A stretch of 64,000 nucleotides of DNA from Nereocystis luetkeana (lineage: Eukaryota; Sar; Phaeophyceae; Laminariales; Laminariaceae): the NCBI GenBank assembly GCA_031213475.1, contig JARUPZ010000007.1, positions 3,343,586-3,407,585 of the forward strand, in the 5' to 3' direction. Positions 28,901 to 64,000 of the stretch are shown in pieces. Every line of letters begins with the position of its first letter. Position 1 is the stretch's first letter. A program made the position numbers and the translations under genes. The notes under the pieces are model-generated. The model made no database searches, was not told the DNA's origin, and saw only the letters and a program-made list of their open reading frames with translations.

Positions 28901-31900
28901 TCACACCTGGTGGACGAGAAGGGCGTAGCTCGCGTCCGTGTCGACGACGTATATTCCCTTGTTCGTCAGCTCTTGAATCGAAATGCGCTTGGAAAGGCTT
29001 TTCTGCAGCAGAGCCGACACCTAAAGAATATGAGCAAAAGAGAGAAACAAAATAGCAGGAGAAATACTTCAGTCAACAAGCTGCCACCGTGTTTTTTTTT
29101 CTTCATGATTTTGCACGTTCTGCGTTCCCAACTGTAATTTCCTATTTCTCCTTGGACGAGGTTTCGGGGGCTGTACGTACGTACCCAGCAAGCGCGGTAA
29201 AGCAGAACGAAACGAGGCTGCTATGCAGCGCCGGCATGGTCGAGTTTCCCAGCGTGATCAAATAACTCGTAATATATATATATATGCTTCGAAGTACAAG
29301 CGCAAAAATCAGCGCGCTTTGCTTCGTGCGGCTTTTTTTTATTCTTATTGGGCTACGCCAAGCGAAGGTCGTAGATGGTGGTCCATGTGGAGTGTACAAA
29401 CCAATCACTTCAAAAACAATAAATAGGTCTATTAGATCGGGGTTGATGAACTCACTGAATTTTTTATCTACAAGCGGATGAACTGGTACAGTGTTGTGCT
29501 CAAAATAAGAATGGTGGTGCCTTCCGCTCGTTCCGGCCGATGTTACTCGTTTACAGAGGTTAAAACCCCAACGCTACTCAGTCAGGTATGAAGAAAAAAC
29601 CAGGCGCTGGTTGGGGGCTTGATCAACCCGGGAGGTTGTGTCGAGCGGGAGGCTGGATTGAACCCACAAACACTGATAATTTTGTTCGTTTACAATGGTT
29701 GAACCACCGAGTACTATTCAGCGGGATAACCTTCGTAAAGGAACAGATGTGTGCGCCACCCTTCGAGAGGTCCCTACAAGATAAACAAGCGGCTGCACAC
29801 ACGCTGAAACGCGAACCATCCTGACGGATACCCCGACAGAAAAGGAGCGGCATCACGCGCAATCAAAATCTGTGCGTCCTGGCGCCAAGCACGCCCCCCT
29901 CGGCGCGTCGAACACGCCCGAACAAGATACCCAAGACGCGGACGGACGGTGCGCACACCTCTCGGACGAAACGAACCAACGCATCCCAAAGCGGCGGCCT
30001 GCCGCGGTGGTGTCTATAATACATACAGACAGCAGTAGCGGGGTCCCTCTCTAATGCCGGTATGTGCCTGCCAGGCCAACATACCGGCACTATTTTAGCG
30101 GGCACCGGCACCAATTACTCCGCACACTTGCCACACTGCTTTATCCCATCTGTGCCAAGCGATATCACCGGCATTATTAAGCAAGCATTATTAACCCGGC
30201 ATCATAGAGGGGATCCCTGTGTAGTGCAGTGCAGTACCTCCTCTCTCGCCCCTGCCCCCAGCTGCGACGGGTGGGACCTCCACCGCGCGTCATCGTGCTG
30301 CATGGTCAGGTCCAGAGCTTCGCGGAGCTTCGAGCTGTTTTTCTCGTGTTGAGTCTGTCCCGAACGGAGCAAGTTCGACAATCAAACAACGCGGGGGAGA
30401 CGGGGGGGTTTTTCCGGCACAGAGGGGAGAGAGAGCGCACGAGCGCGCACGGCAAGAACGAGGTAGATATAGATTCGACCATTTTTGCGAGATTTTTTTC
30501 ACATGAAAGGGAAAAAACCTTCAGCCGCCGATGTACACAGAGGCAACGAACCACCAGGTGAGAGGGGGTTTAATTGCTCCCACTCTCTTGGGCGTGTAAC
30601 CGTAAGGGCCGCTTGGTTTTCATGTTCTTATCTAAACGGTGCTATTGGTAGTATTTCCACACAGATTGGTATTGCTGCCTCGCCGGACACCTCACGGCGC
30701 TTCGCGCTTGGTGCAAGCGATGTCCGCCTCCCCCGACGTGCTCCGTCCCGGCATTGTACGGATGCGAGGGTCTATGGCCATGCAACTACCACCCTGCATG
30801 ATGATGAGTGCACCCCCCCCCCCCCCCCGTCTGGGACTAAAAAAAACAATGTGGGATGTCGGTTTTTCGTTTTGTTTCGTGTACCCTTGGGCATGTATGA
30901 CCTTTTTTATTTTGTTTTTTACCTGCGTCCCCTGCTGGGGTTTGATGCCGCGCTTTTCTAGGTCCTCAAGAGCCGGCCTCGTCAGCAGGCGCTCCTTCAG
31001 GCTAATGGCGATCAAATTGCGCTCCAAGTGCTCCGTCGCAGGATCGAGACCACCCGCCCGGTAGATCCTGGTATAACGTATAACGAGAAAAAAAAGGCGG
31101 CAACAACGAACCCGTGTTAGGAACCGCTTTACGAATGTTTTGTTGTTGTTGTTGTTGTTGTTGGGGGGGGGGGGAAATCGGATTCGAGGATTCCGTGCCC
31201 AACGCAGTGGCTCCGAGCCTATTATATATATACCCACGGGGGATATTTTTTCAAGGCGATAAGTTATAGGGATGTTTTCCTCGGGGGAGAGTTTCGTTAA
31301 ACTTTTGATTTTTTTAAGAGTGCGTTTCGACTTCTTTTTCCACGTACGCGATACCCGCTCTTACCCGCTCTTGCCTCGAAAAATTCAGGATAGTTTGGGG
31401 ATTCAGATGAGTTTTCAACAAGGTGTTGGACGTACGTACAGGGCGGTGCTGCTGCTCATCGCTCTGTCCGGAAGTGTAAGGACTGTCGAGGGGCATGAAG
31501 ATGAGTGCATCAAAGTTCTCTTACAAGCCGGACAGGGCATTTTTTGCTCCGAAAAATCTGAAGGAAAAAGCACGTCCCTTCTTACTGAAATACGGGGATT
31601 CCTCGCTGCTGCGGGTGAACGCCAGGTCTCGAATCATTCCTCGCTTCTGCGGGTGAACGCCAGGTCTCTCGAATCCACGGAGACGAAGCGACTGCCGCTG
31701 AAATAGCAGTCTGGTGCTGGCGGTGCTGTGGTCTCGCTACACGAACGCACTCCAAACATGTGCCTCCGCGGGCTCTGGGCAGATGATGGTACGTGCGTCG
31801 TACGTGTAGAGATAGAGCAGCTTGCGCTGGTCCTGACTTTCGACCCTCACACAGGGACAGAGCGCATGCTCCCAGAAACACAACCAGGCTTATACTAGAG

Positions 31901-34900
31901 GGGGGGGACACCGCCACACCGCGAGGGTGTTGAACCGCCCATGCGGCGGCGGTTGTCTGACTGTCCGAGCTGCAACAGCGGTCTCTCTCCGTCTCGACGC
32001 GCAACCTCTCTGCTTTCGGTATGCATCTCGGCAAAAAAAGGCAGCCGCGCGACCTCGTACCAATCACCATCGCTCGTCCTTATAAAATCCAGGCAAAACT
32101 CATCTTTAGTTGGTCTTGATGTACTGATTCTAAAGCCTCCCGTGATTGGTCGGTCCTAATAATAATTGCCTCACGTATAGGTCCTGTGCCCGACGCAAGC
32201 AAAGGGAAGGGGGTGCCACGCGCTTGGGCGTTGCAAGCACGGTACGAACACCGAAGCATTTCGCCCTCCCAGAACTGCTCTCGAGTATTTGCGCATCAAT
32301 GTCAAGACTGGGATGCGAGTTTGTGAAAGCGAAAGTCTTGCTGAAAATATCGTCGTGTGCACCAAGAGCCTAAACCGTTTGCGCGGACAAGTGGTACTAC
32401 TCTAATGGATTCTACTACTTTCTCGCGGTGAACGAGCTCCTATGATATCACATTTCGCTGGCGAGGGCCGTCGAAACCACGCCATTCGAATGTCCTAACC
32501 TGGCTTTCTTGAGCTCTTCGAGGTCGGGTCGGGCGGACAATTTTGCGGACAGCTTGGCGCGGAGGTCTGCCTTAACCTGATTGAGCCGCAACCCATTCGA
32601 GGCGCGCGAGAAGCACAAGAGGACCGAGGCATAGCGAGGGGAAAGAGAAGAAAGTTTGACACAATTATGTATCTCGTCCCTGCACATATTTTTTAATCGG
32701 AGATCGTGGAAGGCGAGTGCGGCGGGTGTGTGTGGGTGGGTGGAGGGGGGGGCGTACTCATCTGTTGCGAACCTCTTTCAAGACAGAGCAGCGGGGGGGG
32801 GAGGAGGGGGGGCGCACTCATTTGTTGCTTGCCTGTAGCCCTTTGATCATTAACCACGGATCTCTTTCGAGGCGGAGCACCGTTCCCACTCCTGATAGAG
32901 ACAACTCCAACAGTTGGGCGCTTAGGGAGGGGGGGGCGAGGGGGGGGAGGGGTCCCGATTTCCCGATTTTTCCGACCAAGCACCTTAACCAAACATTTCC
33001 CCCCTTCTTAACGTCTACCAGGGTATACGTTAAAGGGGCATCGGTAAGCGGTAATCACACTCCTATCTGTCGTAAATCCTAAACTTGCGAGGTGATGCCG
33101 ACTTTTCCATACTAGTCTACTGCAGTCACAACCAACAGCTTAGCGGGGGGGTGGTTTAGCTGACGGGACCGATTGCGCAAAACCATCGCAAAAACAAAAC
33201 GACCAAATCTCCATGAAAACAACTTAACAACACACGGTCCGAACAGCAAGAACCGCACTCGCTAGAGTACGCGCGGCAAACAAACTGGTATCACCCACAG
33301 CACGGGGTCCTCTCTGCGACCGGCGCCATGATAAGGGCAGTACTTCTACGTGGGGAAGCTCGTGCTAGGCCTAAACCCCGCAGTGCAACTAGGGGTAGCC
33401 CCCTTCCCCCCCACCGTAGCCCACATTAGCTCGGGGCCTACGCCAGTGGTGCTGCAGCGAGGGACGTTTACCGCCTCTTCGACACTAACGCTCTGGGCGG
33501 CCGTAAATACAAGGAGCATTTGGTCTTCATATTATTGTCTAAAATATCCTTATATTTCCGGCCAGAGAACTGTGGTCTAAAGTGTCACTGGCGCGTACCG
33601 TACGATACTAACATAACTAACCCTAACCCTTACCCTACCTCTTTCGGCCCTTTTAGCACCACAGTCCCGTTGTTGAGGACACACCAGTCAAATTGTAAGT
33701 AGTTTGTCCCCAAAGACGGGACTGCAGTCCTAAAAGGGTTAATTAAGATAATCAGACACACCCAACCAAACCGACCATTGGCTCGGCATAGTTAGCCCCT
33801 TTTTTTGTCTCGGATCACAAGCGAGTGTGTGCTCCAACCATCCTACGATTAAGACTACAGTAAGTGTCGAACAGCTGGTGGTAACTCTACGGCTGACTGT
33901 AGCATACCAGTACATTCACATCGCCCTGAGACAAAAACCGTCAAAAAAAAAAAGTCTAGTGCTTGCCTTGGCCTCCTCCTCGGAAGCTTCCACCTGGAGG
34001 TCCGCCAGCCGCACCTCATGAGCCACCAGAGACCGCGACTCGCAGTGCCTGCAGAACACCTAGGACAACGGGACGGGGGGTGAAAAAGGCGTGATGGAGT
34101 CGAGGGCGGGAGTGGGGGGGGGGGGATGCAACCCATTGTCATTCATGGTCGTAGTCGTATGACCATAGAGACTCCCGCATCACTGCAATGTCGGAATGGA
34201 ACGCGCCGGGTTTCCACCGACCAGGTGGGCATTTTTTGCCTGCACCAAAGTTGAGCGAAATGCCGTGAGTTGGTTCGGCGAATCGCGTGAAGGGGTGAGC
34301 CGCATCCTACTTCTACTGTAGTAAACTAAAGTAGTAACCGCTTTTGAGGTGGGTTTTGGGCACCTTGTAACGAACTTTCGAACCATACGGATGAGAAGCG
34401 TCGAACCACGTGACTTGTTTCTTCCGAACCTCCCATCATCGATCGCCCTTCCGTCACCCCCCATCTCCCAGCCCCTCCGCCTTCCACTTCCCAACCCCCA
34501 CGTCACCCTGACGACGCCCTCGACTGCATCGAGCCCCCATTGATGGCCACTGAGGGCACAAAAAAACACCATGAACAAGCACCACTCAAAAGAAGGGGCA
34601 ACGCATGACGGTGACACATGCCTAATATGGAAAATCGTATCTACTGTAATTGGAAAGAGGCAAACGGGGGGTGGACGTGAACGAAGACAAAAATCCAGCC
34701 AAACTATTGCGAACTATATGGCACACATTTGTTTACCTTGCTTTTCTGTAGGGTTTGAAATTTACTAAACATACCTGGTAAGATATATACGGGCAAAGTT
34801 CCTCTGAAAAGAGGGCTACCATCTTAAATTTTATTGGCTACGTATGTAAGACTTCTAAACATTTTTTCCCCCTCAATTTGGAACGCCCCCGACCCGACGC

Positions 34901-37775
34901 GGAAACCGAGTTGTGACCGCCTCTTGCGGGTTTGTCTTCGTTCGCCCGCCGTCTCCCCGTCACTCTCCTCTACTCCCCTGCCTGCCTCCGGTGTAGTGTG
35001 GGACACATCACCAGTATTCCACACGTCGGGCGCAACTTACAGCCCTTACGTAAACCGTTTTAGTGCCGCACTACACATGAACCTAAATCTCACTCTAATT
35101 CCAAGGAATACGCCCCCACAACGGGAGGGCACTGCTAACAGGGTCCATGAGTAGATATTTCAGGGCAGACAGACCCACGATCTGTACTGGCACAAGCTAG
35201 CTCATGTCGCCGGGTGGGAGTCGTATAGATCTGCATGATCTACTACCGTACGTATTGATAACACGGGGTCGGATCTTCCGTGCTACGCAGATCATCTCCA
35301 CCACAACTCACGACGGCAGGTTTAGAAGGACGTGCTGCAGATAATCTACTGCTGTAGATAATCCACTGCTGTAGATGACCTACTGCTGTAGATGACCTAC
35401 TGCTGTAGATAATCTACTGCTATAGATGACCTACTGCTGTAGATGATCTACTGCTGTAGATGACCTACTGCTGTAGATTATCTACTGTGAGTTATCTACT
35501 GCAGATGGTCTACTGTGGATTTTCTGCTGCAGATGATTTGCTGTAGATGACCTACTGCTGTAGATGACCTACTGCTGTAGATGATCTACTGCTGTAGATG
35601 ATCTACTGTGAGTTATCTACTGTGAGTTATCTACTGTGGATGGTCTACTGTGGATGGTCTACTGTGGATGGTCTACTGTGGATTATCTACTGCTGTAGTT
35701 AATCTACTACTATGTGGATTTTCTACTGTGAATTATCTACTATTTTACGGGGGACCATAGTTAACAGGACCAAATTTTCTTAATAAAAATGCTTAAATAT
35801 ATAGGTTTTTATCTATACCATAGGTCCTATTAACTATGGTCCCCCAAAATACTATGGATTATCTACTGTAGACGATATATTGTGGATTATCTACTGTGGA
35901 TTATCTACTGTGAATTATCTGCTGTGGATTATCTACTACTGTGGGTTTTCTACTGTGAATTATCTACTGCGGATTATCTACTGTAGACGATCTACTGTGG
36001 ATTTTCTACTGCTGTATCATCTACTGTAGATTGTCTACTGTGAATGATCTATTGCACACTGCAATCTGTCCCACGTAGTATGCGGTGTTCCCACACGTAC
36101 CTTGAACTTATCCGCCCGTTTCATGCTCCCCGCCGAATCGCTGCCTCCCCACAACAGTTCCAGATCCTTTACGTCAAGCGACGCGGAAGTGGACCAGCGC
36201 TGCACCAGGCGGCACGACATGGCCTGCTCGAGGGTAACCCTGGTCGCCGAAGATTGGCGCCGCACAACAAACCAGAAACACATGAATCGGAGGGAAGGCA
36301 AGGGAAGAGGGTGTGCTTAACCTTAACCCCTTTAGAACTCCAGTCCCGTTTTGGGGACAATCCACTCAAAATCCAAGTAAGTTGTCCCCAATTGTCCCCA
36401 AAACGAAACTGCAGTCCTAAACGGGTTAAGTGCACAAGGACAAAAAGGGTGGAATGGCATGGTATGCTCTGCCCTTCGGCCATAATACATCAGGTGGAAC
36501 CAACATGGCCTATTTCCATTCCACAAAAAAACGATTGCGAGGGTGTGTGCTCCCCCCCCTCCCGAGTCGGCGGGCGGGCGGGCGGGCGGGCGCGGGTGCG
36601 ATACATATCGCGACCGATTCAACGATGTTGCGCGGGGGAAACACAAGAAAAGAAAAGAAGAGAAAAAAAGATAGGTGCGCGCGCCACCTTGCGCATGTAC
36701 CCCCTGCGGTGAAGGCGAGTCAGACAGGCAGGCGAAGTGTGAACAACGTCGAACCCAATGAGGAGGGGGCCTCGCCGCGAAAGGAGAGACATTGACTACG
36801 CCCGCTATATATTCCATTTCAGTACCTACCAGTACGACCAGTACACCAGTGAAAAAAATACGGAAAAGTTTTAGAGTGAATACGGGTGGACCCAAGCGTA
36901 GATCATCATCATGCTCGTTGCGCTACGGACAGAGAGGCGAGCAAATATTCATATTACCAGCAAACACCGGTAGAAACAGGCGAACGCTCGTAGTCCGGCG
37001 GCGCCAACAGTAACTAACTGCTGTACCAGGTACGTAAAACAGCCAGCACTTCCTTCCCCCGCCCGCCGCTGTGCGCGGGGGTCGGGGGGGCGGGGGGGGT
37101 GGGGGGCACCCAAGAAGAAAAAAAAAGACGCCCCGAAGGAACAGTGACACTAAAAAAACGAGCAAAAAACTAGAGCAACAACAACAAAGAAAAACGAAAC
37201 GCTTTTTCGCGTGAAAAAAAACGTCCAGAAAGTCCCCACCCCACTGGCTCGTGTTTCATTCCAATGTGAACTATGGCCATTTTATCGGAAGCGTGGTTTC
37301 TTTTTTATCTTCCGGCCGTGCAACCATGGTGGGGAGGGTCGCTACTACTACTACAATAAAAAACGCCCCCAAAGCCTCGGACAGGCCCTCGTTTTCCCAC
37401 TTTTGTAATTAATCTACATCTAAAGTCTCTGTCAACAAAAAAAAAGGCAGATTCGCTCCTTCCCGGTCTTGTATGATCTGCCACAGCAGTAGGGATTGTA
37501 GGCCACGTTGCCGGGTGGGATCCGTATAACCCGCATGATCTACCTGGTGTATGGTAGCGCGTGTTTCCTTGGGTTGGATCCGTACTGCTGTTGCAGACAG
37601 ATTCTGCATAACCTGTCACAGCGGCTACTGTAGGGGAGGAACTATTTACGGGGGACCACATTAAACAGGACCTACGGCACACACGAAAACCTCTATGTTT
37701 CGCTATTTTTACTAACAATATTTGGTCCTATTTACTATGGTCCCCCGTAATAGACCATCTGTGCACAGTAGATAA

Positions 37776-37809
<34 letters not shown>

Positions 37810-40800: not shown

Positions 40801-41644
40801 GACGTGTGGGGAATCATCGATGGTCTGCCCGAAGGGGGTGGGTGGGTGGGGGGGGGGGGGGCGTACTCATTTGTTGCTTGCCTTAGTCATTGGACCATTG
40901 ACCACGCATCCCTTACGAGACCAAGGAGGTGGTGGGGGAGGGAAGGAGAGGGGGGGGGGGGGGGGGGGGGGGGCGTACTCACTTGTTGCTTGCCTTAGTC
41001 ATTGGACCATTGAAGCATTGAAGGGGGGGAGGGGGGGGGGGGGGGGGGGTGACAGCATTAATCGCTGACGGAGCTCCTTCTCAACCAATGCATCAACCAT
41101 TGCAAAACCGTTGGAGCCGATGTCAACCAGTATACATATGGATACCTGGCATTTTACTCAAGGAGTGTGCACCGGGCTTGGCTTGACACTTTTCCCGCAC
41201 CTCGGATCAGATAGATCATCTCTCTTACTCTACGGATTTGACCATCTACGGTAGTTTCCTCGCCTGCACCGTTGCGAGAGACTGGTTGGCGCAAGGACCC
41301 GTATAGTGCGCACATACATCAGATGCAGCAGCCCGAGAAAAAAAAAAGTGCGCTGTACTATCATGCGGATTGAACGCGGCTCCCACCCGGCAAGACCAGC
41401 AAAAAATCGTAGCAGCACAGGTCTTCCTCTGAATGATCCAGATCGAACCCTATACTACAGTAGGAATCGCCATCAACCTGTCCAAGGAGCGAACTTTTCC
41501 TGAAAAATCGGTTGTCGGGGTTCCCCGCGCCAGGAATGCTTGCTAGGGTGCGCAACGTAGCGTACGGATGTAGCCACGGGTCACATGACGCACGCTCGAT
41601 GTAGAACATTTTTCCACTCCATCGGGCAGACCATACAGATCGCG

Positions 41645-41680
<36 letters not shown>

Positions 41681-41697
41681 CTATATCTGTCTATCTG

Positions 41698-41740
<43 letters not shown>

Positions 41741-41753
41741 GTCTACCAATCTG

Positions 41754-41791
<38 letters not shown>

Positions 41792-47639: not shown

Positions 47640-47707
<68 letters not shown>

Positions 47708-53700: not shown

Positions 53701-53973
53701 TCGGGTTACCAAGGGGGTCCATATTAACAGCGATCAGAACCCACGGTGGACCCAAAAACCATGTATCCCCCTGTGCTCACACACCACATTTGGCTCTCAT
53801 TACTGTGGTATGTTCCCCCTTAATGGATAACTGAGCTAAGGTACGAACATCATCATCGTTATCAAGGTCATCATCATCATCACCATCGTCATCGTCATCG
53901 TCGCCATCATCATCATCATCATCATCATCATCGCCATCACCATCATTACCATCATCATCATCATCATCATTAC

Positions 53974-54032
<59 letters not shown>

Positions 54033-57000
54033 ATCATCATCGTCATTATCATCGCCACGTCTCGTGTCTGGCTCGAACAAGTTGTGCGGCAATAGATCGA
54101 TGTCGATGCCGCGGCCAAGGGGGGATAAACGCTACTACTGTACGGCCCCCGCTTCCCGCTTCCCACTTCCCGCTTCCCCCCCCAGCACCCCCACACAGAC
54201 TCACCACCCCCTCCTCGACCGCGGAGCTGATGACCGAACACTTCAAAATATCGTCCAATGTGATTACCGGCCCCGTATTTTCGAGCTCCTGGAAGGTGTG
54301 TTCCAGCTGTGAGGACTCCAAAACGCCGCGGTCCATGAGGTCCTCTCTGATATACCACGAGAATATTCCCGCAAACGGGAGCACAGACGTTTCGGCGGAT
54401 CAAAAGGCGGGCGGGGGATGGCCCCAAGAGGGGGTGAGGCGCGCGCGGGGGGGGGGGTCGAGATGCTCCACGATTGTTTCGGTGGTCGCGATGAGCCGTG
54501 CAAAGGCGCACAGACACAGACCGCATCTTAAGCCCCCCCCCCCCCCCTCCCAGAAAAAAAACGTTTCGCCATGCATGATACTGAGTACAACCCCCCTCTC
54601 TTGAAGATTGTTGGAATAAATTGAGCACGTCCTTATTGGTATTCTTTCGAGGAAATCTCGCTTTTAGGAATGTCGCGCGTACTTCTGAAGTAGAAGGAGA
54701 GCCCGAAGTAGTCGAACGACGCGTCCATCGGGACACATGATAACCCTGCGAATCACCCCCATCATCACCGCCGGGGGCTCCTGTGTCACTCAACCGTCCG
54801 AGCGAGGACTGCATCAACTTTCGGCAACGGCGAAAGGTCCAGCGTGCGTGTTGCGTGGAGTCTGGAAGTTTTTCCGGCTGCTTCTGCAGCAAGCAGTCAG
54901 TGTTTGGCGCGCTCCTTCTCGCGCTAAAAACTATCGACGCGCTGAAGCGGCGATTCCTTTCGGCTCTCGCAAACCGAACCCCGATGCGCACGTCCACCTA
55001 CAGCCTCGCGTCCGTCAGGGGGCACCCTGGGTACATCCCCGGGTTCCTCAGATCCACAACCACATGCGATACATCAGTTTTTTTAGACCCATACAAGTAG
55101 TATCCACGTAATACACCGGGTTCCTTAGGCTCATATACATCCACGCAAGAAAACCCGGGGTTGTACCCAGGACGTCCCCTGACGCCGACAGCCTGCAGCA
55201 CACACCCTGCCACGGCCCAAGAAAAAAAAAAAAAACGACTGCTACGAAAGAGGTACCGCGTTTTGTCATAAACGTTTTGTGAATGACGGGGGGGGGGGGG
55301 GGGGGGGGGGCTCCTCAATCCAAAATCGTCGTAAAATGCATTCAACCGTGTTGCAAAGTTTCTCTTTCATGTACTCAAAACTTAAAGGGCCGTGGGATTG
55401 CTCATCGGATATCACGGGGGGAAGGTAGAAATTAGGACCAAACACGCTCAGTAAAAAATACCGGAATATACAGGTTTTTGTGTTTACGATGGATTCTGAT
55501 CACTGTTAATACAGATCCCCCGTAGTAGTGTTTTTTTTTTTTCATCAAAATCAGTTTTTGCAGGGCTCTTGACGAGTGTCACGACCCGACCCGCGGGTAG
55601 GGTCAGGAAGTTATTGAAGTTTCACACGGGTCGGGCCGGGTCGGGTTGGGTCTCACCAGGAGGTAGGTTTCCGAAACTCTCACGGGTCGGGTCGGGTAGG
55701 GTCGGATTGGGTCGAGTCGGGTCACCGTTACCCGACCCGATCCGATCCGACCCGACCCTGATCACTGTTATTAATATGTCCCCCCGTAATATTAATAGCA
55801 CTTTTATTGGGTGAGATTTTAGAGCTTTTCAAGTGAGGAACAATGAGAAAAAAAACATGGTTTCCATTCTGCTGTACAATCACACACATGTAAGGACGGC
55901 TCCTCAAGGACTTGCTCAGCTGATCCGATCGCATCGACCTCTCGAGGCGCTGCTTCAGATCGACCTCCCGGTCCAGGTAGATGCCCTTATCCTTCAGCTC
56001 AGAGACGTCGATCCTGTCAGAAGAGAGCGCGCGATCACCGAAAGAAGCCACAACCAAGCGCCTCGAAAATTAATAGCTCGATCGACAGGGAGGCTACGCA
56101 CGCGAGACGCGGCGAAAAGCATAAGCGGTAATGCACTTGGTCTTGCCGCTACGTCGCACAGCTCAAGTGGGGGTGGGCGTGCAGCCTGTGAAACAAAACA
56201 ACTGCCAAGGCGAGCGGTCGGTTCGAAGCGTTTCGAGAGGTACTGTAGTTCCAACTCACACCTCAAGACAGATTAGCGATTCCCACTTGATGATCTAGAT
56301 ATTTGAGGCAGATATATAGATATATGGATAAATAGATAGACCCCTGATCTGTGGTGATCTATCGTAGCTCGCGTTGCCGGGTGAGAACCAGACCAAACCT
56401 GCGTGTCTAAAAGGACAGGTTTCCTGGGTTGGATCTGAACTGCACAGATCCCGCACAGCACCTCAGAACGGCAGGTTGGGGTCTACAGTAGATGATCTGT
56501 CTGTAGATGATCTATCTGTAGACAGATATATCATGATCTGTCGGAGGTGTGAAATAGTTCAAGATTGGCGTTTTTCGGACGGCAGGCCGGTCGCAAACCG
56601 CCGATGGGATTTTCGACCTCTAACGCCTGCGGCAGAGTCAGGACAGGATTGCCGTACGTAGCGTGTGGTCTAATGCGTACACGCTTGCAACTTGCAGAAC
56701 AACATGCCGGTGTGCGCTCTAGCGGGACGGTTTCTGATCCGCCTACATGGGGCGGCGGACGTTCGCTCCGGTATTGCGGCGTGCATCAGGGCGCAAAATG
56801 CCACCGTGTATACCTGTGGGTTAGCTCGTGCTCGAGGAAGGTTCCCGCTAGCTTGTGCAGCCGGCCCGTCGCCTCCAGTTGCTCCGGTGTCTGATAGATG
56901 CCCGAGGATTTCAGCTCGTCCAGAGACGGCCGGCGGTGGTGTCCGTGCCCCTGGTTTCATCAGCGTTTCGTCCGCGGAGCAACAGAGAAATGTCATAAAT

Positions 57001-60000
57001 AATGCCACGATTGCATACATCATTACACACACGACTGTCGTGAGTTCGACAGCTTGCTTGCGGTCGGTTCATACTCAGTTTTTTATCAAGCGGCGTGTAT
57101 GTCAGCCGTGAGTTCGGCCGAGTGAGTGATTCAAACTTACCTTTGAAGGCTGCGTGTTCGGTTTCGGTACACGTACGAATAACAACCCTTACTGCTGACT
57201 TCAGAGGAAAAAAATGGAGGAAAAAAACACAAACTGACGCGTGAAGCAACCGGCCGCACGAAGCTTATGTAGCCCGGGCTGCTTGGATGCGGAAAATACC
57301 AGTCACAACCCGGACAGATAATCGATCCCCACAGTTCATCATCTAGATTTTTCAAGGCAGATCTATCCCCGATCACGCACTATCTCGCTCACGGTGCTGG
57401 GGTGGGGCCCGTCCAGTTTTACATGATCTGTGTACAGTAAGTAGCACATGTTTCCTGGGTTGGATCTGACCTGTAATGCAGATCCTGCACAACCTCTCAC
57501 AACGGCAGGTGAGGAACTACATGATCTATGCACTGTAGACAGATAGATAGATAGATAGACAGATCATGGTCTGTCTCATCTGTCCAAGGTGAGCGAGTGT
57601 CCCCAACTCCCAAAGTGCAGGGACACGCTATCAGTCACATACCTGGACCGAAACATAACGGCACTCTACGTATATGTCGATATTTATACCGCTTGGGAGT
57701 TCCTTATACTCTCGCCCAGAGTGGCCCTATGCTCGTACAGGTGCGCGCTCAAACCACAACAGAAGGCTGACTATAGGGAATCGAAGGGGCCTCTCCGCCC
57801 TAATGGCGGACCGGCCAAACTGTGGATTTAGTCGTAGTTCATCCAAACGGGCTACGAAAAAACGTATCGGGTGCAGGTACAAGAAGCGCCTGCGAACCGC
57901 CGACACTACCAGGTATATCCTGCAGTAGTTGAAACCCTTTTGAGAATCGGTCGATTTCCTAGCCAAGTAAGGTTAACAACACCGAACAACAAGGTGTTTT
58001 TGGAAACATTCCGGTCGAGAGCCTACCGAAAAAATAGTGGTGGACTTAAGCACCCCACCGTTACAGTTGTCGAGAAAGCGAGCGCTGAAAAACGACCGCG
58101 CCCCTGTGCGAAATCAACGTTCTTTGCGGGAATATCCGAATGCTCGTAGATCAAATGGACTACTTTTCTCCTTCGGTCGAGGGTCTTTCCTTTCGCCCTC
58201 GGCTGCGGGGCAAGCAGGGGGCACGCGTGTACACCACGGCGCAAGTGTCGGTCCCGGCCGGGCTCCGTGGCGCATGCTCTGGGATTCCAAAGTCGCGAAA
58301 TCTGGCAAGTAATCGCGAGGAGGCTTTTCAGCCCAGCTACAGCCAAGCAAGCACATGGGAAACCCCGGCTGTCGTGTTTCCGTTTTTCACTCTTGACCAG
58401 ACTGATGCTTGCTGCTGTTTCTTAAGTATCGCAGCAGCGCCCTCAAAGGCTAGGCAGCCACGGTACAACAGCCGCGCTTCAAATATTAATATTTCCCTGT
58501 GTGACAGCCACGAACGGTGCTGCTACTGCTGCTGCGGTTGCTGCTGCGTGTGTGTGAGCGTGCGTGCGCATGTGTACCCTACAGAGGTAGGAACCGATAG
58601 GTCAGGCGCACTCTCAAATTTATTTGTTTTTTAGCCATCACCCTATCTGCTTCTCCTCTTGTGGACCTGTGCAGGCATCACACTGCTGCCGAGAGCTTGA
58701 GCTTTTAACGCCGTAGCACGCACGGTACACGCAGCAGTAGCAGTACCTCAAAGCCCTCTTTTCGTTACACAGCTACGAAAGGTGCTACTGCCGTGTTCGT
58801 GCGTGAGTGTGCTTCTGTGGGCATGCCATCCTCATCACAAAACGAGCTGGACGATTCCAACCCGCACGCGCTCTGAACTTCAAAAGCACCCGCGCTCACA
58901 CAACAGCAGCGGTACAGCATCAGCAGCAGCAGCATCGATCGGTGAAACACCAGCGAACCTCACATAGGCTACTTACTATACATAGGAACACCTAATGATG
59001 TTCACTCTTTTTCAACTTTCGACACCCCGGGATTTCAAGTCAACCACATCCTGAACGGGAACCTTGTAGGTTGATATGAAACCACCGCGCTCCCCATTGT
59101 TGTGGTCGCCACACTGAACAGTAATAATAGTGTAACACGCTAGCTATAGCACACACACCCTGGGAGGACGAAGTTCCGGGTCGATCTCTCCGAGACAAGC
59201 AGCAGGAGCACCCAGGCCGAAAATGGTGGCTTTCGAGAAGAGGTCGTCGTTATTACCTTGCGATAGACGCACGCATCGCTCGGGCGTGTGCACCCTCTCC
59301 CCGCAGTCAAGAGGAAATCACCTTTGGAAACTTGTCCGAGGGGGTGTGTTATCCTATCACCCGGGTGATAGTGTGATACGTACGTACGGCAATCAGGTCG
59401 AAAGGATTCACGGCGCCCCCACCTCGCCCCACACCCGTTCAAAACACGCGCGGTCGGCGTACTGAAGTAGGTATCACGCAGAGTATCAACCACTCAATCG
59501 GTCAATCTCACAATCTGACGTCTATTTGCAAAGCAAATATTACTAAAATACGGCAGGGCGGCCAAATATATACCCCCCCCCCCCCCTCCCCCCCGTTCAG
59601 ACATGCGCGAATGGTACAGAAAAGGGGAAAAAAATGGATGCAAAGAAGCGCTCTCTCTCTCTCTCTGACTCGCCTGGCTGTTCACGTCGCCGGTCTTCAG
59701 CGCCGAGTCGTCCTGCGTACCATACATGTCCGCCAGCATACTCTTGGTAGCGTCGACCTCGGCCTGCCGCAAGGCGTCCTCCGCAGGGGTGTGCACGATG
59801 TGCGACGCACGCATCTCTTCCGGGGAGGGCCGAGACTCTAAGAAACCAGACACCTGATTTATAGTTTGTGCACATGGGGCATGTGTAGGGGTAATAAAGG
59901 TAGAACGCGGAGGCAAGGGGAAGCTTTAGACGAATGATCGTAGCTTGTGTGTGGCGGGAAGCGGGCAGTGGTAGGCGGTAGGCGGGTGGATGGGCGATGG

Positions 60001-63000: not shown

Positions 63001-64000
63001 CAGACAGGGCATCTTCGGTTTCTCACGCTGCTCTCCATTGGGGTACGCAGAGAAGCAGAAGTCTGACACACGTTACGTTTTGGGTAACACTATGCATGCC
63101 TACGTATTAGCACTAAACCCGCGAGGATACCCCTGGGTGTCCGCGATGCCATATTTTCGATTCCACACATATACTGCAGCCACATCGAGGTGTACTCCCG
63201 CACGAGTGGTGCTGCAGATATTTCGGCATCAAGGCATTCTCCCGAGGTAGTACTCTTGCTGTTTTCCCGGCACCTTCTTCTCTTCCCTGTCCGTCTCAGA
63301 GTCCGGGGCCTTGTAAACCCCAGTTCTCACGAGCTCGCGCAAGGTTTCCGGCGTGTGGTGCGCCAGCCCCTCCTCGAGCGCCGCGCGCACCATGGTCGAG
63401 TGGAGGGTCTCTCCGAGCGGACCACTTTGGTCTTTCTGGTGGTCTTCCCCCTATGAACAAAAAAATGTTTTTTTTTATAAAACACGGGAAGTCGGAAGCA
63501 CGCGTAAAAAGGGTGAGCTGTGGAATGCGATCGAGTAACTAACCGCCTCAAAAAACGCACACGCACATACGAGCACAGACCAGAGAGAGCGCACGGAAAC
63601 TTCACTTTACGTAGTGTGTTGTGGTGCGGTTGAGTGCGTTGAGTTGCGGGCTAGAGCGGTGCGGTCTGGTGCGGTTTGGTGCGGTACGATACTGTGCGTA
63701 CCACGGACGCGAGACCGCTCAACCCACCTCCTCCTCGCTCACTCCACCCCGCTGGTGAAGGGTTAAGGTGGCACGCAGGAGCCCGAGCATTCGATGCCTG
63801 GCCGCCACGAGATCACGCCCGGTCTGCGCGCTGCGAGGCGAAGTCTCAGGCGACAGCGTTATCCCTGTCACAAAAGGCGGTCAGGGGTAGCATCAAGCAA
63901 AGGCGGTCAGGGGTCGGCATGAAAAGGAAAGGCAAGCGGTAGCATAAGAAGGCAGTCAGGGGTTTAGACACGAAAAGGGAAGGCCGGTGGTTGCAGGTCC
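28901..64000 (-). CDS. Multi-RPEL repeat / EF-hand protein (22 exons, 5' end outside window)
   Basis: Twenty-two minus-strand exons (first 63728-63864, last 28907-29020 or to the TGA at 28901) join with matching phases into 969 codons without a stop. The product is a chain of about 14 RPEL-like units, each close to L..xRP...EL...GIY.D, for example [44 protein letters not shown] and [14 protein letters not shown]. Two EF-hand-like pairs interrupt the chain: a degenerate pair in exons 7-8 and a pair in exons 15-16 whose second loop reads [13 protein letters not shown]. No signal peptide or membrane span is seen. In animals RPEL motifs bind G-actin, so a calcium-responsive actin-monomer-binding or scaffold role is plausible but inferred. 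The N-terminus, promoter and any catalytic domain lie beyond 64000. An undetected in-phase exon is possible. Confidence 0.85.
28907..29020 (-). CDS. RPEL gene exon 22 (probably last)
   Basis: CTTTAG|GTG, 38 codons. [19 protein letters not shown] is the last unit. After ...LVHQ the sequence reads GTG TGA: either a stop at 28901-28903 with one extra Val, or a further GTGTGA donor. I see no later RPEL-like exon, so a stop is preferred. Confidence 0.82.
29021..30686. other. RPEL gene intron 21, right part of last intron
   Basis: Intron between the last two exons. No further exon recognised. A short AT run is at 29269-29285. Confidence 0.4.
30687..30831 (+). mobile_element. 5'-truncated C-tailed LINE, family L2
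   Basis: The last 125 bp of family L2 (GCCGGACACCTCACGGCGCT...GGCATTGTACGGATGCGAGG) ending GATGAGTGCA and a C tract at 30812-30828. Confidence 0.8.
30923..31067 (-). CDS. RPEL gene exon 21
   Basis: ACCAG|G...CAG|GTAAAA, 1 base plus 48 codons. [20 protein letters not shown] is a full unit. A truncated C-tailed LINE lies 90 bp into the following intron. Confidence 0.9.
31138..31172. repeat. (TTG)n followed by a G tract
   Basis: Seven or eight TTG units, then a run of G. Confidence 0.9.
31173..32499. other. RPEL gene intron 20
   Basis: No exon seen. A 36-bp unit containing CTGCGGGTGAACGCCAGGTC is tandemly duplicated at about 31600-31675. A plus frame over it (31272-31706) has no recognisable product. 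Confidence 0.4.
32500..32576 (-). CDS. RPEL gene exon 20
   Basis: AATCAG|GTT...CCAG|GTTAGG, 25 codons plus 2 bases. [17 protein letters not shown] is a strong unit finished by (R)IYRAGG in the next exon. Confidence 0.9.
32748..32945 (-). mobile_element. 5'-truncated C-tailed LINE, family L1
   Basis: The plus strand reads G tract, (C)GTACTCATTTGTTGCTTGCC..., TTTCGAGGCGGAGCACCGTT, CAACAGTTGGGCGCTTAG: the reverse complement of the L1 LINE 3' end. A shorter second start (GCGTACTCATCTGTTGC) at 32752 suggests two insertions side by side. Confidence 0.85.
33648..33742. mobile_element. TTAA-flanked MITE (family A)
   Basis: Inverted repeat CCCTTTTAGCACCACAGTCC / GGACTGCAGTCCTAAAAGGG, with TTAA at the right edge only. 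Confidence 0.8.
33967..34059 (-). CDS. RPEL gene exon 19
   Basis: CCTAG|GTG...AAG|GCAAGC, 31 codons, phase 0/0, with a GC donor. [20 protein letters not shown] has an isolated C-x-x-C. An alternative in-phase GT donor after LADLQ would shorten it by nine codons. Confidence 0.55.
34108..34350 (-). mobile_element. 5'-truncated C-tailed LINE, family L2
   Basis: G tract at 34113-34125 followed by the L2 3' end on the reverse strand (CATGGTCGTAGTCGTATGAC ... GACCAGGTGGGC ... AACCGCTTTTGAGG). It lies just upstream, in transcript sense, of exon 19. Confidence 0.8.
34351..35337. other. RPEL gene intron 18, central part
   Basis: No exon or clear repeat until the minisatellite. The last 150 bp belong to the dispersed repeat family D (CGCCGGGTGGGAGTCG...). 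Confidence 0.35.
35338..36058. repeat. Minisatellite, unit about CTACTGCTGTAGATGATC
   Basis: About 35 imperfect units of 11-18 bp (CTACTG(CTG)TAGATGA(C/T), TCTACTGTGGATTAT). Units are partly self-complementary. A family B MITE sits inside the array. Confidence 0.95.
35744..35849. mobile_element. MITE family B inside the minisatellite
   Basis: TTTTACGGGGGACCATAG ... CTATGGTCCCCCAAAAT with the shared centre (TTAAATATATAGGTTTTTAT). Minisatellite units flank both sides, so insertion came after array growth, or the array grew around it. Confidence 0.9.
36101..36239 (-). CDS. RPEL gene exon 18
   Basis: ACCAG|G...AAG|GTACGT, 1 base plus 46 codons. [20 protein letters not shown] followed by VKDLELLW is a diverged RPEL-like unit without RP. 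Confidence 0.72.
36323..36429. mobile_element. TTAA-flanked MITE (family A)
   Basis: TTAACCCCTTTAGAACTCCA ... CTGCAGTCCTAAACGGGTTAA. TTAA on both sides. Confidence 0.85.
36430..37643. other. RPEL gene intron 17, central part
   Basis: No exon seen. (GGGC)n at 36571-36591 and a G-rich patch at 37077-37106. A family D repeat copy covers about 37480-37640. Confidence 0.4.
37644..37752. mobile_element. MITE family B
   Basis: TATTTACGGGGGACCACA ... CTATGGTCCCCCGTAATA. Outer dinucleotide TA on both sides. Confidence 0.88.
37771..37809. repeat. (GATA)n microsatellite
   Basis: About nine GATA units. Confidence 0.95.
38033..38091 (-). CDS. RPEL gene exon 17
   Basis: AATAG|GTG...AAAGG|GTGAGA, 19 codons plus 2 bases. 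Short helical segment [15 protein letters not shown]. Membership rests on phase, splice sites and position. Confidence 0.65.
38596..38655. repeat. (CCCT)n microsatellite
   Basis: Imperfect CCCT tetranucleotides. Confidence 0.9.
38724..38839. mobile_element. MITE family B
   Basis: TATTACGGGGGGCCATAG ... GGTATGGTCCCCCGTAATA. A 5-6 base ACCAG insertion interrupts the right arm. Confidence 0.88.
38929..39032. mobile_element. MITE family A, diverged
   Basis: CATTTTAGAACTGCAGTCCC ... GGGGACTGCAGTTTTCGCC. The right end is altered and TTAA is not preserved. Confidence 0.75.
39037..39128. mobile_element. MITE family B, left end missing
   Basis: AGTAAATAGGACCCGAT ... TTACTATGGTTGCCCGTAATA. It abuts the family A copy, which seems to have replaced its left end. 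Confidence 0.8.
39328..39436. mobile_element. MITE family B
   Basis: TATTACGGGGGACCATAG ... CTATGGTCCCCCGTAATA. Best-preserved copy, with TA at both edges. Confidence 0.92.
39501..39595. mobile_element. MITE family A
   Basis: AACCCCTTTAGCACCGCAGT ... GAACTGCGGTTCTAAAAGGG. Outer TTAA decayed. Confidence 0.85.
39600..39836 (+). mobile_element. 5'-truncated C-tailed LINE, family L2
   Basis: TTCACGCGACTCGCCGAACACC ... leading to GACATGAGTGCACCCCCCC. Ends 50 bp from exon 16, so insertions come close to exons. Confidence 0.8.
39885..40037 (-). CDS. RPEL gene exon 16 (EF-hand)
   Basis: TTCAG|GAG...CAG|GTACTG, 51 codons, phase 0/0. [20 protein letters not shown] is an EF-hand with ligands D1, D3, D5, G6, I8, but Q instead of E at position 12. 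That change is expected to weaken calcium binding or alter its selectivity. Confidence 0.92.
40283..40393. mobile_element. MITE family B
   Basis: TATTGCGGGGGACCATAG ... GGCCCCCCGTAATA. Confidence 0.85.
40664..40782. mobile_element. MITE family B
   Basis: TATTACGGGGGACCCTAG ... CTATGGTCCCCAGTAATA. Confidence 0.88.
40845..41050 (-). mobile_element. Two 5'-truncated C-tailed LINEs (family L1) in a row
   Basis: Twice on the plus strand: G tract, GCGTACTCA(C/T)TTGTTGCTTG, CCTTAGTCATTGGACCATTG. The second copy ends in a further G-rich tract at 41025-41049. Each copy keeps only 50-70 bp of LINE. Confidence 0.85.
41645..41791. repeat. (CTAT)n microsatellite
   Basis: About 35 CTAT units with some CTGT interruptions. 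Confidence 0.97.
41840..42300. other. RPEL gene intron 15, part with family D repeat
   Basis: Contains TTCGGCAACGTGAGGTACGA and GATC-rich phrases of family D. No exon seen. Confidence 0.4.
42431..42466. repeat. C tract beside exon 15
   Basis: Long C run broken by single T, immediately downstream of the exon 15 donor in transcript sense (read as G there). It has no LINE sequence attached. Confidence 0.9.
42484..42717 (-). CDS. RPEL gene exon 15 (RPEL, then EF-hand start)
   Basis: CCACAG|CTT...CAG|GTGCGC, 78 codons, phase 0/0. [20 protein letters not shown] is an RPEL-like unit. A helix and an acidic/Gly-rich loop then end [10 protein letters not shown], like an EF-hand with an enlarged loop. 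Confidence 0.85.
42757..43240 (-). mobile_element. Cluster of 5'-truncated C-tailed LINEs, family L2
   Basis: G tracts at 42765-42789, about 42891-42911 and 43090-43120 are followed by L2 3'-end pieces in the same orientation (CATGCATGGCCGTAATCGTA; GTCCTGCATGGCGGCC; AACGCCTGTGAGGCGGACTT). At least three insertions or a piecewise duplication. Confidence 0.75.
43241..43850. other. RPEL gene intron 14, central part
   Basis: No exon or clear repeat until the GGTCC array. Confidence 0.4.
43852..43998. repeat. GGTCC / GGGTC array
   Basis: Direct GGTCC(G) units (43866-43911), then GGGTCGG(A/G) units (43934-43970), then inverted CGACCCGACC. Arms can fold back. Confidence 0.9.
43999..45208. other. 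RPEL gene intron 14, right part
   Basis: No exon seen. C tract at 44771-44786 and A-rich runs near 44468. Confidence 0.4.
45209..45382 (-). CDS. RPEL gene exon 14
   Basis: TATCCAG|CCG...CAG|GTTTTT, 58 codons, phase 0/0. [20 protein letters not shown] is a unit lacking RP. The rest is strongly charged and helical. Confidence 0.82.
45391..45438. repeat. (GGA)n / (GA)n microsatellite
   Basis: GGA units pass into GA units, 9 bp from the start of exon 14 and within its acceptor region (read as a pyrimidine tract on the minus strand). Confidence 0.92.
45963..46048 (+). mobile_element. 5'-truncated C-tailed LINE, family L1
   Basis: CAGTGCTCCGTCTCGAAAGG ... AAGCAACAAATGAGTACGCC and a C tract: about 75 bp of L1. 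Confidence 0.88.
46049..46280. mobile_element. Two L2 pieces in opposite orientation
   Basis: Plus-strand piece CTGTCCTGGCATTGTAGAGA ... GATCGAGTACACTCCCCCC (46050-46129) and a minus-strand piece starting from a G tract at 46218-46246 (GTACTCATGTCATGCATGTC). Confidence 0.75.
46573..46656 (-). CDS. RPEL gene exon 13
   Basis: TTGCAG|CAC...AAG|GTCAGA, 28 codons, phase 0/0. [19 protein letters not shown] is one unit with RE for RP. Confidence 0.8.
46710..46735. repeat. G tract, orphan C-tail remnant
   Basis: G run broken by A, then GCGTGTAGTGGG. No LINE sequence is identifiable beside it. Confidence 0.6.
47121..47225. repeat. Dispersed repeat, first copy (other near 58050)
   Basis: GAGAAA(A)(A/G)(A/C)GAGCGCTGAA ... 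TCAAC(C/G)TTCTTTGCGG is shared with 58071-58130, about 75% by eye. Confidence 0.55.
47640..47714. repeat. (CT)n microsatellite
   Basis: Long CT run with a few interruptions. Confidence 0.97.
48268..48417 (-). CDS. RPEL gene exon 12
   Basis: TCGCAG|AGG...GAA|GTGAGT, 50 codons, phase 0/0. [20 protein letters not shown] is a near-canonical unit. It lies next to a C tract that belongs to the intron. Confidence 0.92.
48428..48452. repeat. C tract beside exon 12
   Basis: C run starting 10 bp outside the exon 12 acceptor side. Confidence 0.9.
48590..48850. repeat. Dispersed repeat family D copy
   Basis: GATCTATCTATCTGTCTACA, GCGGGATCTGCACAGTAGTA, TGCGGCTCCCACCCCCGCAA, GATCATACAGATCATACAGA. The same phrases occur at 37480, 40440, 45750, 51850, 56290 and 57330. 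Confidence 0.7.
48956..49093 (-). CDS. RPEL gene exon 11
   Basis: CACCAG|GCG...GAT|GTGAGT, 46 codons, phase 0/0. It contains ANKGIYLD, then the strongest full unit, [19 protein letters not shown]. Confidence 0.92.
49846..50027. repeat. GGGTC / CGACCC array with two long direct units
   Basis: A unit of about 63 bp (TCGGATCGTATTGAGTAAAG type) repeats twice, then CGACC(C) units. The start and end are inverted relative to each other. Confidence 0.88.
50064..50117. mobile_element. MITE family A, one arm
   Basis: GGGCCTTTCAAGACTGCAGT ... GGACAAACTACTTGGGTTAA. Only one arm and the centre remain. Confidence 0.65.
50378..50444 (-). CDS. RPEL gene exon 10
   Basis: TAACAG|G...CTG|GTACGT, 1 base plus 22 codons. 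[14 protein letters not shown] is joined in the next exon to ANKGIYLD, completing a unit. Confidence 0.82.
51078..51120 (+). other. tRNA-like A-box fragment
   Basis: GGGCGTTTGTAGCTCAATCG then GTAG looks like the 5' part of a tRNA, but no anticodon arm or B box follows. Confidence 0.35.
51421..51700. repeat. Array of TACCCGGGTAC-type palindromic units
   Basis: Units (A/G)TA(T/G)(A/G)TACCC(G/A)(G/A)GTA.CC(C/T)CAGA repeat about six times between exons 9 and 10, at roughly 30-37 bp spacing. Confidence 0.8.
52081..52172 (-). CDS. RPEL gene exon 9
   Basis: ACACAG|GTG...CGCAG|GTAGGT, 30 codons plus 2 bases. [20 protein letters not shown] keeps the RP core but has Q for the Leu of EL. Confidence 0.75.
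52725..52829. repeat. Dispersed repeat family E
   Basis: GTAGTACTGTAACGAGAACT ... GGGTTCTGATCACCGTCAAT. Related copies at about 52990-53115 and, inverted, 53700-53815. Confidence 0.7.
53306..53419 (-). CDS. RPEL gene exon 8 (degenerate EF-hand)
   Basis: AATAG|GTG...CAG|GTATCG, 38 codons, phase 0/0. [20 protein letters not shown] then EFDNFL has the helix-loop-helix shape of the second EF-hand of a pair. Loop oxygens are mostly missing, so calcium binding is doubtful. Confidence 0.8.
53700..53822. repeat. Dispersed repeat family E, inverted copy
   Basis: GGGGGTCCATATTAACAGCG ATCAGAACCCACGGTGG-type reverse complement of the copies at 52725 and 52990. Confidence 0.7.
53848..54050. repeat. (ATC)n microsatellite
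   Basis: About 60 CAT/ATC units with scattered GTC and ACC variants. Frames read as poly-Asp, poly-Met or poly-His, all artefacts. Confidence 0.97.
54205..54346 (-). CDS. RPEL gene exon 7 (RPEL end, degenerate EF-hand)
   Basis: TATCAG|A...GTG|GTGAGT, 1 base plus 47 codons. [12 protein letters not shown] ends an RPEL unit. [17 protein letters not shown] then looks like a degenerate EF-hand loop with hydrophobic I at loop position 8 and acidic D at 12. Confidence 0.82.
55280..55311. repeat. G tract
   Basis: Pure G run of about 21 bp preceded by TGAC. No LINE end is identifiable. Confidence 0.8.
55415..55530. mobile_element. MITE family B, chimeric with family E end
   Basis: Left end like family B (ATTAGGACCAAA, AGTAAAAAATAC, GGTTTTTGTG), right end GATTCTGATCACTGTTAATA then CCCCCGTAGTA, as in family E. 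Confidence 0.7.
55565..55765. repeat. GGGTC / CGACCC array
   Basis: CGACCCGACCCGCGGG, then GTCGGGTCGGG units, then inverted CCGACCCGATCCGATCCG. Three related arrays occur in this gene. Confidence 0.9.
55888..56013 (-). CDS. RPEL gene exon 6
   Basis: GACAG|G...TACAT|GTGTGT, 1 base, 41 codons, 2 bases. Begins (R)[14 protein letters not shown]. It ends [10 protein letters not shown], completed by [10 protein letters not shown] in the next exon through a split ATA codon. Confidence 0.9.
56280..56545. repeat. Dispersed repeat family D copy
   Basis: GTTTCCTGGGTTGGATCTGA, CAGATCCCGCACAGCACCTC, GATGATCTGTCTGTAGATGA. Confidence 0.75.
56814..56950 (-). CDS. RPEL gene exon 5
   Basis: ACCAG|GGG...CACAG|GTATAC, 45 codons plus 2 bases. 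[20 protein letters not shown] is a strong unit. FLEHELTH starts the next, which is completed across the intron. Confidence 0.85.
57330..57590. repeat. Dispersed repeat family D copy
   Basis: GTTTCCTGGGTTGGATCTGA, GCAGATCCTGCACAACCTCT and a (GATA)n patch at 57540-57560. Confidence 0.75.
57600..59673. other. RPEL gene intron 4, main part
   Basis: No exon recognised. CTG-rich stretch at 58510-58545. A second copy of the 47121 repeat is at about 58050-58135. A frame at 58023-58346 on the minus strand covers that repeat and shows no RPEL motif. Confidence 0.4.
59674..59853 (-). CDS. RPEL gene exon 4
   Basis: AATCAG|GTG...CAG|GCGAGT, 60 codons, phase 0/0, with a GC donor. [20 protein letters not shown] is a clear unit, followed by a helical, acidic spacer. 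Confidence 0.8.
59854..60779. other. RPEL gene intron 3, left part
   Basis: Several open frames of low complexity. No product recognised. Confidence 0.4.
60780..60865 (-). mobile_element. 5'-truncated C-tailed LINE, family L1
   Basis: G tract with one A, then TTCTTATTTGTTTCTTGCCT ... CGTTCGAGACGGAGCA, the reverse of L1. Confidence 0.85.
61728..61853 (+). mobile_element. 5'-truncated C-tailed LINE, family L1
   Basis: A C tract, then GGTGCTTTGTCTCGAAAGGG ... AAGCAACAAATGAGTACGCC and a second, longer C tract. It ends only 22 bp from the exon 3 donor in transcript sense. The C tract on the other side hints at insertion into an older tail. Confidence 0.88.
61875..62051 (-). CDS. RPEL gene exon 3
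   Basis: TCCCAG|GCC...TCG|GTAGGG, 59 codons, phase 0/0. [18 protein letters not shown] keeps RP but not EL. The donor is chosen by phase, and an earlier in-phase donor after SKQ is possible. Confidence 0.6.
62082..62220. repeat. Degenerate tandem array, about 16-19 bp unit
   Basis: (T/A)GTAACATGGTGTTC(G/T)ATG units repeat about eight times in the intron just upstream of exon 3. Confidence 0.8.
62726..62763. repeat. (CATAC)n microsatellite
   Basis: About seven CATAC units. Confidence 0.95.
62764..63273. other. RPEL gene intron 2, right part
   Basis: No exon or defined repeat seen. Confidence 0.4.
63274..63450 (-). CDS. RPEL gene exon 2
   Basis: CATAG|GGG...AAG|GTGCCG, 59 codons, phase 0/0. 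Unit [20 protein letters not shown] then GVYKAPD: RP is lost but EL..GVY is kept. Confidence 0.75.
63645..63705. repeat. (GTGCGGTTT)n-like short array
   Basis: GTGCGGT(C/T)TG units, five or six, imperfect. Confidence 0.7.
63728..63864 (-). CDS. RPEL gene exon 1 of those in window
   Basis: GACAG|GG...GAG|GTGGGT, 2 bases plus 45 codons, phase 0 out. Encodes a helical leader ending [18 protein letters not shown], the first half of a weak RPEL-like unit. At least one exon must precede it. Confidence 0.6.
63868..64000. repeat. Tandem repeat at the window edge
   Basis: AAGGCGGTCAGGGGT...GCAT(G/C)A-type units repeat about four times. The array continues past the window, in the intron upstream of the first visible exon. 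Confidence 0.75.

Follow-up and report, generated by a model that had tools for sequence, protein, structure and literature searches.

The minus strand of the window analysed here, a 64-kb stretch of brown-algal, probably kelp, DNA, carries a gene that runs from beyond position 64000 down to a stop codon at 27660 and whose predicted protein combines many RPEL units with EF-hand-like modules. The protein is probably a polyvalent G-actin-binding scaffold that would act as a monomer buffer or carrier, with actin binding predicted by analogy with known RPEL proteins.

Relatives of the protein were recovered by protein searches, four in the first search and five more in the second, and a third search using a four-sequence alignment returned only P0008. 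The taxa found represent a lower bound, as each search scored only the 7999 candidates with the most shared words. Full-length relatives were 1453–1662 residues long; profiles detected 15–20 RPEL units in them, along with as many as five EF-hand-like modules. In its C-terminal half, the window protein shared 91.4% identity with a predicted protein of Laminaria digitata and 68.7–73.0% with P0002, P0005, P0006, and P0007; P0005 and P0007 are presumably close relatives of the brown-algal type. Judging from the predicted proteins, the gene is conserved in brown algae and in at least one relative outside brown algae (Chrysoparadoxa). Among viral contigs, none of 56 pattern matches was confirmed. 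No description of this protein was found in the open-licence literature searched on RPEL with actin, algae, stramenopiles, Ectocarpus, or EF-hand and on actin monomers in brown algae.

Gene model and surrounding sequence

The curated model comprised 23 exons in the window, encoding 964 residues with consistent phases and a single stop codon at the end. The donors of the 22 window introns were 21 GT and one GC (exon 18), and AG was present at all 23 acceptors. The first four relatives mapped to the minus strand as collinear exons in tblastn searches, and the model was backed by predicted proteins from Laminaria, Ectocarpus, Scytosiphon, Pylaiella, and Chrysoparadoxa; the predicted gene structure is well supported. 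The 5′ end lies outside the window, and the Ectocarpus protein P0004 has approximately 123–128 additional N-terminal residues. Exons 3, 4, 7, 11, 14, 18, and 19 were placed by hand using splice sites, phase, and the relatives. Exon 3 is the least certain: a partial match, together with phase and splice sites, is the basis for its start and for the decision on a possible small exon near 62051. The candidate near 62051 was excluded, as the model agreed better with the relatives when joined without it. The features of the gene are as follows.

63728..63864, minus strand: exon 1 in the window (the gene runs on 5′ past it); residues 124–170 of P0004 match 63868–63728 at 68% identity
63274..63450, minus strand: exon 2, degenerate RPEL unit without RP (tblastn, curated model, unit profile)
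59686..59853, minus strand: exon 3, RPEL unit, boundaries least certain (curated model, unit profile; its own tblastn match was not significant)
56814..56950, minus strand: exon 4, RPEL unit and start of the next (tblastn, curated model, unit profile)
55888..56013, minus strand: exon 5, RPEL units, including the first part of RPYIEDL (tblastn, curated model, unit profile)
54205..54346, minus strand: exon 6, end of an RPEL unit leading directly into EF-hand-like module EF2 (tblastn, model, profile comparison)
53306..53419, minus strand: exon 7, second half of EF2 (alignment with relatives)
52081..52172, minus strand: exon 8, linker (tblastn, curated model)
50378..50444, minus strand: exon 9, first part of an RPEL unit (tblastn, curated model)
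48956..49093, minus strand: exon 10, end of the exon-9 RPEL unit and one full unit (tblastn, model, unit profile)
48418..48955, minus strand: 538-bp intron separating exon 10 from exon 11, containing 26 consecutive G; the seven relatives covering this point have 338–459 residues here, EF3 among them
48268..48417, minus strand: exon 11, RPEL unit (tblastn, curated model, unit profile)
46573..46656, minus strand: exon 12, RPEL unit (tblastn, curated model, unit profile)
45209..45382, minus strand: exon 13, degenerate RPEL unit and spacer helix (tblastn, curated model, unit profile)
42484..42717, minus strand: exon 14, RPEL unit (DRPDPAQL) and first half of EF4 (tblastn, model, unit profile, profile comparison)
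39885..40037, minus strand: exon 15, EF-hand loop of EF4 with Gln at position 12 (Pfam EF-hand_1 21.1 bits, below the cut-off of 25.4)
38033..38091, minus strand: exon 16, start of EF5 (tblastn, model, profile comparison)
36101..36239, minus strand: exon 17, module EF5 (tblastn, model, profile comparison)
33967..34059, minus strand: exon 18, linker helix, GC donor (tblastn, curated model)
32500..32576, minus strand: exon 19, RPEL unit (tblastn, curated model, unit profile)
30923..31067, minus strand: exon 20, end of the exon-19 RPEL unit and another unit (tblastn, model, unit profile)
30238..30354, minus strand: exon 21, helical linker (tblastn, curated model)
28907..29020, minus strand: exon 22, RPEL unit (38 residues identical to L. 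digitata)
27660..27719, minus strand: exon 23, C-terminus and stop codon (19 residues identical to the L. digitata C-terminus)

An earlier note on this DNA had joined 22 minus-strand exons into 969 codons. That the exons can be joined free of internal stops and phase conflicts was confirmed, with the numbers corrected to 23 exons and 964 residues. The gene end that it placed at 28901 was wrong: a stop is reached there only by reading through the donor of exon 22, and the true end at 27660 lies in exon 23, which had been missed. The extent of more than 35 kb given in the note is due to long introns rather than to protein size.

Spurious exons of two other models were dropped. A 39-exon model, for which the first gene finder had used a unit profile made by hand, contained several of these, such as an Asp-rich repeat at 54067–53804, and a 23-exon homology-guided model contained spurious small exons at 48750 and 41854. 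Microsatellites and a tandem array of 14–17 bases were present in the introns of the gene (41605–41828, 47623–47734, 53818–54053, and 35333–36082); the repeat at 53818–54053 corresponds to the false Asp-rich exon of the first gene finder.

Several other features were also detected in the window. A frame-split non-LTR retrotransposon, with endonuclease and reverse transcriptase in adjacent frames, was found at 7643–11343 on the minus strand (Pfam Exo_endo_phos 25.6, Exo_endo_phos_2 30.3, and RVT_1 105.2 bits), and a second reverse-transcriptase fragment at 15270–15743 on the same strand scored 18.2 bits with RVT_1, below the cut-off of 29.6. On the plus strand, an open frame of 532 codons at 23592–25187 is probably a neighbouring gene; it matched PRMT_C, the arginine methyltransferase C-terminal domain, at 25.7 bits, just under the cut-off of 27. 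An interspersed repeat of approximately 85–100 bases, flanked by long G/C runs, occurred at 7161, 32789, 40837, 40949, and 60773 and in inverted orientation at 45949 and 61733. The G/C runs in the window may disturb assembly.

Between the equivalents of exons 10 and 11, all seven relatives that cover the region (P0002, P0003, and P0005–P0009) carry 338–459 residues, whereas the window has none; the absent segment amounts to approximately 340 residues and includes EF3. A real in-frame loss in the kelp lineage, as opposed to an assembly fault, is conceivable though not probable. Exons 10 and 11 join in phase 0 and the junction of the units looks intact, but the segment is kept in 7 of 7 covering relatives, none of which is a kelp as far as they are named. 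The 26-base G run in the intron also argues against a loss, but it is a weak sign of an assembly fault because such runs are common: the window contains 14 runs of G or C of at least 15 bases, of which this is the longest. The L. digitata prediction is not decisive on this point, as it starts where the missing segment would lie.

RPEL character of the repeated units

An iterated profile was followed by a unit profile built from 24 units of the window, P0002, P0003, and P0004. At a threshold of at least 5 bits, the latter detected 14 units in the window, a count that is not independent since window units are part of the profile, together with 15 units each in P0005, P0006, and P0007 and 20 each in P0008 and P0009, proteins that contributed no unit to the profile. 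At 12 bits, 14, 12, 14, 11, 12, and 12 units were found in the window, P0005, P0006, P0007, P0008, and P0009, respectively. When each of the six proteins was shuffled 50 times, none of the resulting 300 sequences gave a unit. These results agree with the earlier claim of at least 14 RPEL segments, but RP itself was present in just 8 of the 14; in the profile alignment, another four had R without P and two had no R.

The RP pair was intact in 7–8 of the 15 units in each of the three full-length close relatives, in 6 of 20 units in P0009, and in 15 of 20 in P0008, and the window model, P0005, P0006, and P0007 retain RP largely in corresponding units. Across the six proteins, Arg was present in 87 of 98 units, Pro in 53, and the second Leu in 92, while the two positions before the motif were Leu in 69 of 84 and 84 of 92 units with a letter at the position. 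Conservation was concentrated on the two pre-motif leucines, on Arg and the second Leu of the motif, and on the G-I/V-Y tail. Neighbouring units were 35–42 residues apart in 60 of the 66 gaps below 60 residues (38–41 residues in 56 of them), with a mode of 38 (24 gaps); the corresponding spacings are 38 and 38 in Phactr1 and 44 and 44 in MRTF-A. The AlphaFold models of P0004 and P0002 were of low confidence (mean pLDDT 51.7 and 52.8); in these, many units appeared by eye as a long helix, a short break, and a helix of approximately six residues.

The joined draft scored 30.1 bits with Pfam RPEL (PF02755), above the cut-off of 23. This cut-off was passed by five of the nine relatives (P0003, P0005, P0007, P0008, and P0009), including the Chrysoparadoxa australica protein P0008 with 96.0 bits in nine stretches and P0009 with 78.2 bits in six stretches, and was missed by P0001, P0002, P0004, and P0006. 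When ten single window units were compared with Pfam, two matched RPEL, both below the cut-off. A search of 177,635 PDB sequences with the unit profile gave 38 sequences at E≤10, of which 11 were RPEL chains (Phactr1, MAL/MRTF-A, and ArhGAP12), eight at E≤0.015 and three at 0.15–0.42. The matches included Phactr1 4b1z (3.1e-8, three stretches), MAL 3tpq (2e-5), MRTF-A 2yje (3.9e-5), and the Phactr1 peptide 4b1y (0.0027). With a family profile of four full-length proteins, five PDB sequences were found at E≤0.01, all of them RPEL, and one alignment spanned three consecutive MRTF-A motifs and both spacers. P0008 alone gave one PDB match, to Phactr1 (E 0.00052). The RPEL class that the earlier note had proposed for the units, to be checked by profile search, is well supported by the Pfam score and by the matches to Phactr1 and MAL/MRTF-A.

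EF-hand-like modules

Five segments of a common pattern were recognised in the full-length alignment, one at the N-terminus and four further along, set between the RPEL arrays, with the final two adjacent in tandem. Of these, the window includes EF2, EF4, and EF5; EF1 falls outside it, and EF3 belongs to the missing part. P0009 has no EF2. Segments for profile comparison were chosen by us. In hhalign, 6 of the 10 EF–EF pairs scored 58–95% and the remaining four 8.1% or less, none of the 20 comparisons between EF and RPEL segments exceeded 0.5%, and all six RPEL–RPEL pairs reached at least 95.3%. On this profile comparison the EF-like modules were shown to be homologous to one another, and homology to helix-loop-helix pairs was found as well. 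Among the best 60 of 80 PDB matches of an EF1–EF3 profile, most were troponin C, calcineurin B, calmodulin, and calcium-dependent kinases, with a modest best E value of 0.0023; clear exceptions in the same 60 were an alcohol dehydrogenase and a C-type lectin, with DMIP21 and Asr1131 as possible further ones. In the low-confidence AlphaFold models, bridges between paired loops were visible by eye at EF1, EF3, and EF4, none was seen at EF5 (P0004 and P0002), and EF2 was not covered whole.

The RPEL arrays pass directly into EF2 and EF3 through a common G-x-L/F-E-A/S junction, which a pattern search located in P0002–P0008, as well as in the window for EF2, but not in P0009 or P0001. The earlier observation of a high motif count mixed with EF-hands was borne out, in that EF-hand-like modules are present and the combination is conserved.

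Pfam recognised just one EF module, and no EF-hand was found by Pfam in the seven EF1–EF3 members scanned. The consensus EF-hand loop has acidic residues at positions 1, 3, and 5 and Glu at position 12, and replacement of Glu 12 by Gln weakens Ca2+ binding. The EF4 loop of the window departs from this consensus: position 12 is Gln in the window, P0001, P0002, P0005, P0006, and P0007, and Glu in P0008 and P0009. The calcium control considered in the earlier note, at least in a simple form, is therefore doubtful for the window gene, since Gln occupies position 12 of the one loop that looks canonical; EF1–EF3 are not recognised by Pfam.

Proposed function and comparison with known systems

In a study of scapinin and MAL (PMC2626280), tandem RPELs bind G-actin and inhibit its polymerisation, and R/P substitutions abolish binding, RP replacement in one scapinin motif being sufficient. 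The same study describes a lone scapinin motif that did not bind actin in one assay and single MAL motifs reported to bind with constants of approximately 2–19 uM. According to a second paper, the MRTF-A spacers participate in actin loading (PMC4963197). By analogy, the RP-bearing units should bind G-actin, and the protein would therefore be a polyvalent monomer-holding scaffold. Phactr/MRTF-like RPEL arrays alternate with EF-hand-like pair modules along one long protein, and each RP-bearing unit (about half of the units in brown algae) would bind a single G-actin in the way known from MAL and Phactr. One molecule would carry several G-actins in a row, keeping them from polymerising, while the non-RP units and the EF-like modules may provide spacing and structural joints. 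EF4 was probably a Ca2+ sensor in the ancestor, a capacity that brown algae seem to have weakened. The two more distant relatives, P0008 and P0009, start, within residues 1–20, with MGN followed by nearby Ser, Arg, and Lys, which resembles an N-myristoylation signal; the N-termini of P0004–P0007 have no MGN start. Because of this resemblance, a membrane-held ancestor may be considered, and a more elaborate but less likely version can tentatively be drawn, namely a giant actin-monomer carrier that evolved in brown-algal relatives and in which RPEL trains in the Phactr register and EF joints hold more than 10 actins, originally calcium-switched and membrane-held and later calcium-insensitive in brown algae.

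The absence of RP from approximately half of the units in the window and three close relatives, and the fact that 14 of the 20 P0009 units either lack it or have it unaligned, would also fit units of RPEL descent of which most no longer bind actin. The protein would then chiefly serve other partners as a long helical scaffold and keep a few residual actin sites. The helix-forming Leu and the G-I/V-Y tail are conserved despite the absence of RP, and in scapinin and MAL binding was lost when RP was altered (PMC2626280). However, the window model, P0005, P0006, and P0007 keep RP mostly in the same units, and P0008 has RP in 15 of 20 units; we consider this explanation unlikely. Several predicted actin sites in regular register on one chain could instead line up actins to start filaments, in the manner of a tandem-WH2-like nucleator. 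This is quite improbable, as polymerisation is inhibited, not promoted, by the RPEL repeats of scapinin and MAL (PMC2626280), and Pfam scans of the draft and nine relatives found no WH2 domain.

That the units belong to a different helical-repeat family merely resembling RPEL is hardly credible. In the summed unit-profile search of the PDB, thirteen PPR sequences ranked above the first RPEL chain, but they did so by adding up many short stretches; the printed PPR alignments covered 10–11 residues at approximately 4–5 bits, and none was significant alone. Moreover, the family-level profile returned only RPEL proteins at E≤0.01, and the modal spacing is the same as that of Phactr1.

If the units do bind actin, this would be an example from outside animals of a large scaffold that holds actin. 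The existence of a conserved algal family in which profiles detect 15–20 units in the Phactr register, combined with EF-hand-like modules, shows that RPEL is used here in a very different protein, and the family would offer an entry point to the control of the actin monomer pool in brown algae. Because the single canonical EF loop differs by Gln or Glu, the role of calcium can be tested directly by comparing the brown-algal and Chrysoparadoxa proteins.

RPEL proteins are familiar from animals, with three or four motifs. The earlier note described the protein as unlike the animal families; that comparison was with animals, whereas the source is a brown alga. The RPEL motif of ArhGAP12 (6gvc) gave a weak, non-significant match to the unit profile (E 0.42), but no RhoGAP domain was among the Pfam matches of the algal draft and the nine relatives. 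EF-hand pair proteins such as troponin C, calcineurin B, and calmodulin-like kinases share the twofold helix-loop-helix and were the first matches of the EF1–EF3 profile, whereas the algal loops are mostly degenerate. The algal family profile can be aligned across three successive motifs of MRTF/MAL, including the two spacers, but the spacing there is 44 compared with 38 in the algae. The MRTF family carries further domains such as SAP, and none of these was among the Pfam matches of the draft and nine relatives. The Phactr family (Phactr1 and scapinin/Phactr3) has tandem RPEL motifs with a period of 38 residues, a register that the algal family shares (mode 38), and among RPEL chains of the PDB it gave the best match. 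The family profile, at E≤0.01, matched only RPEL-domain chains there. Scapinin has three tandem motifs and a C-terminal PP1-binding domain (PMC2626280), whereas the full-length algal relatives have 15–20 units by profile and EF-hand-like modules between the arrays.
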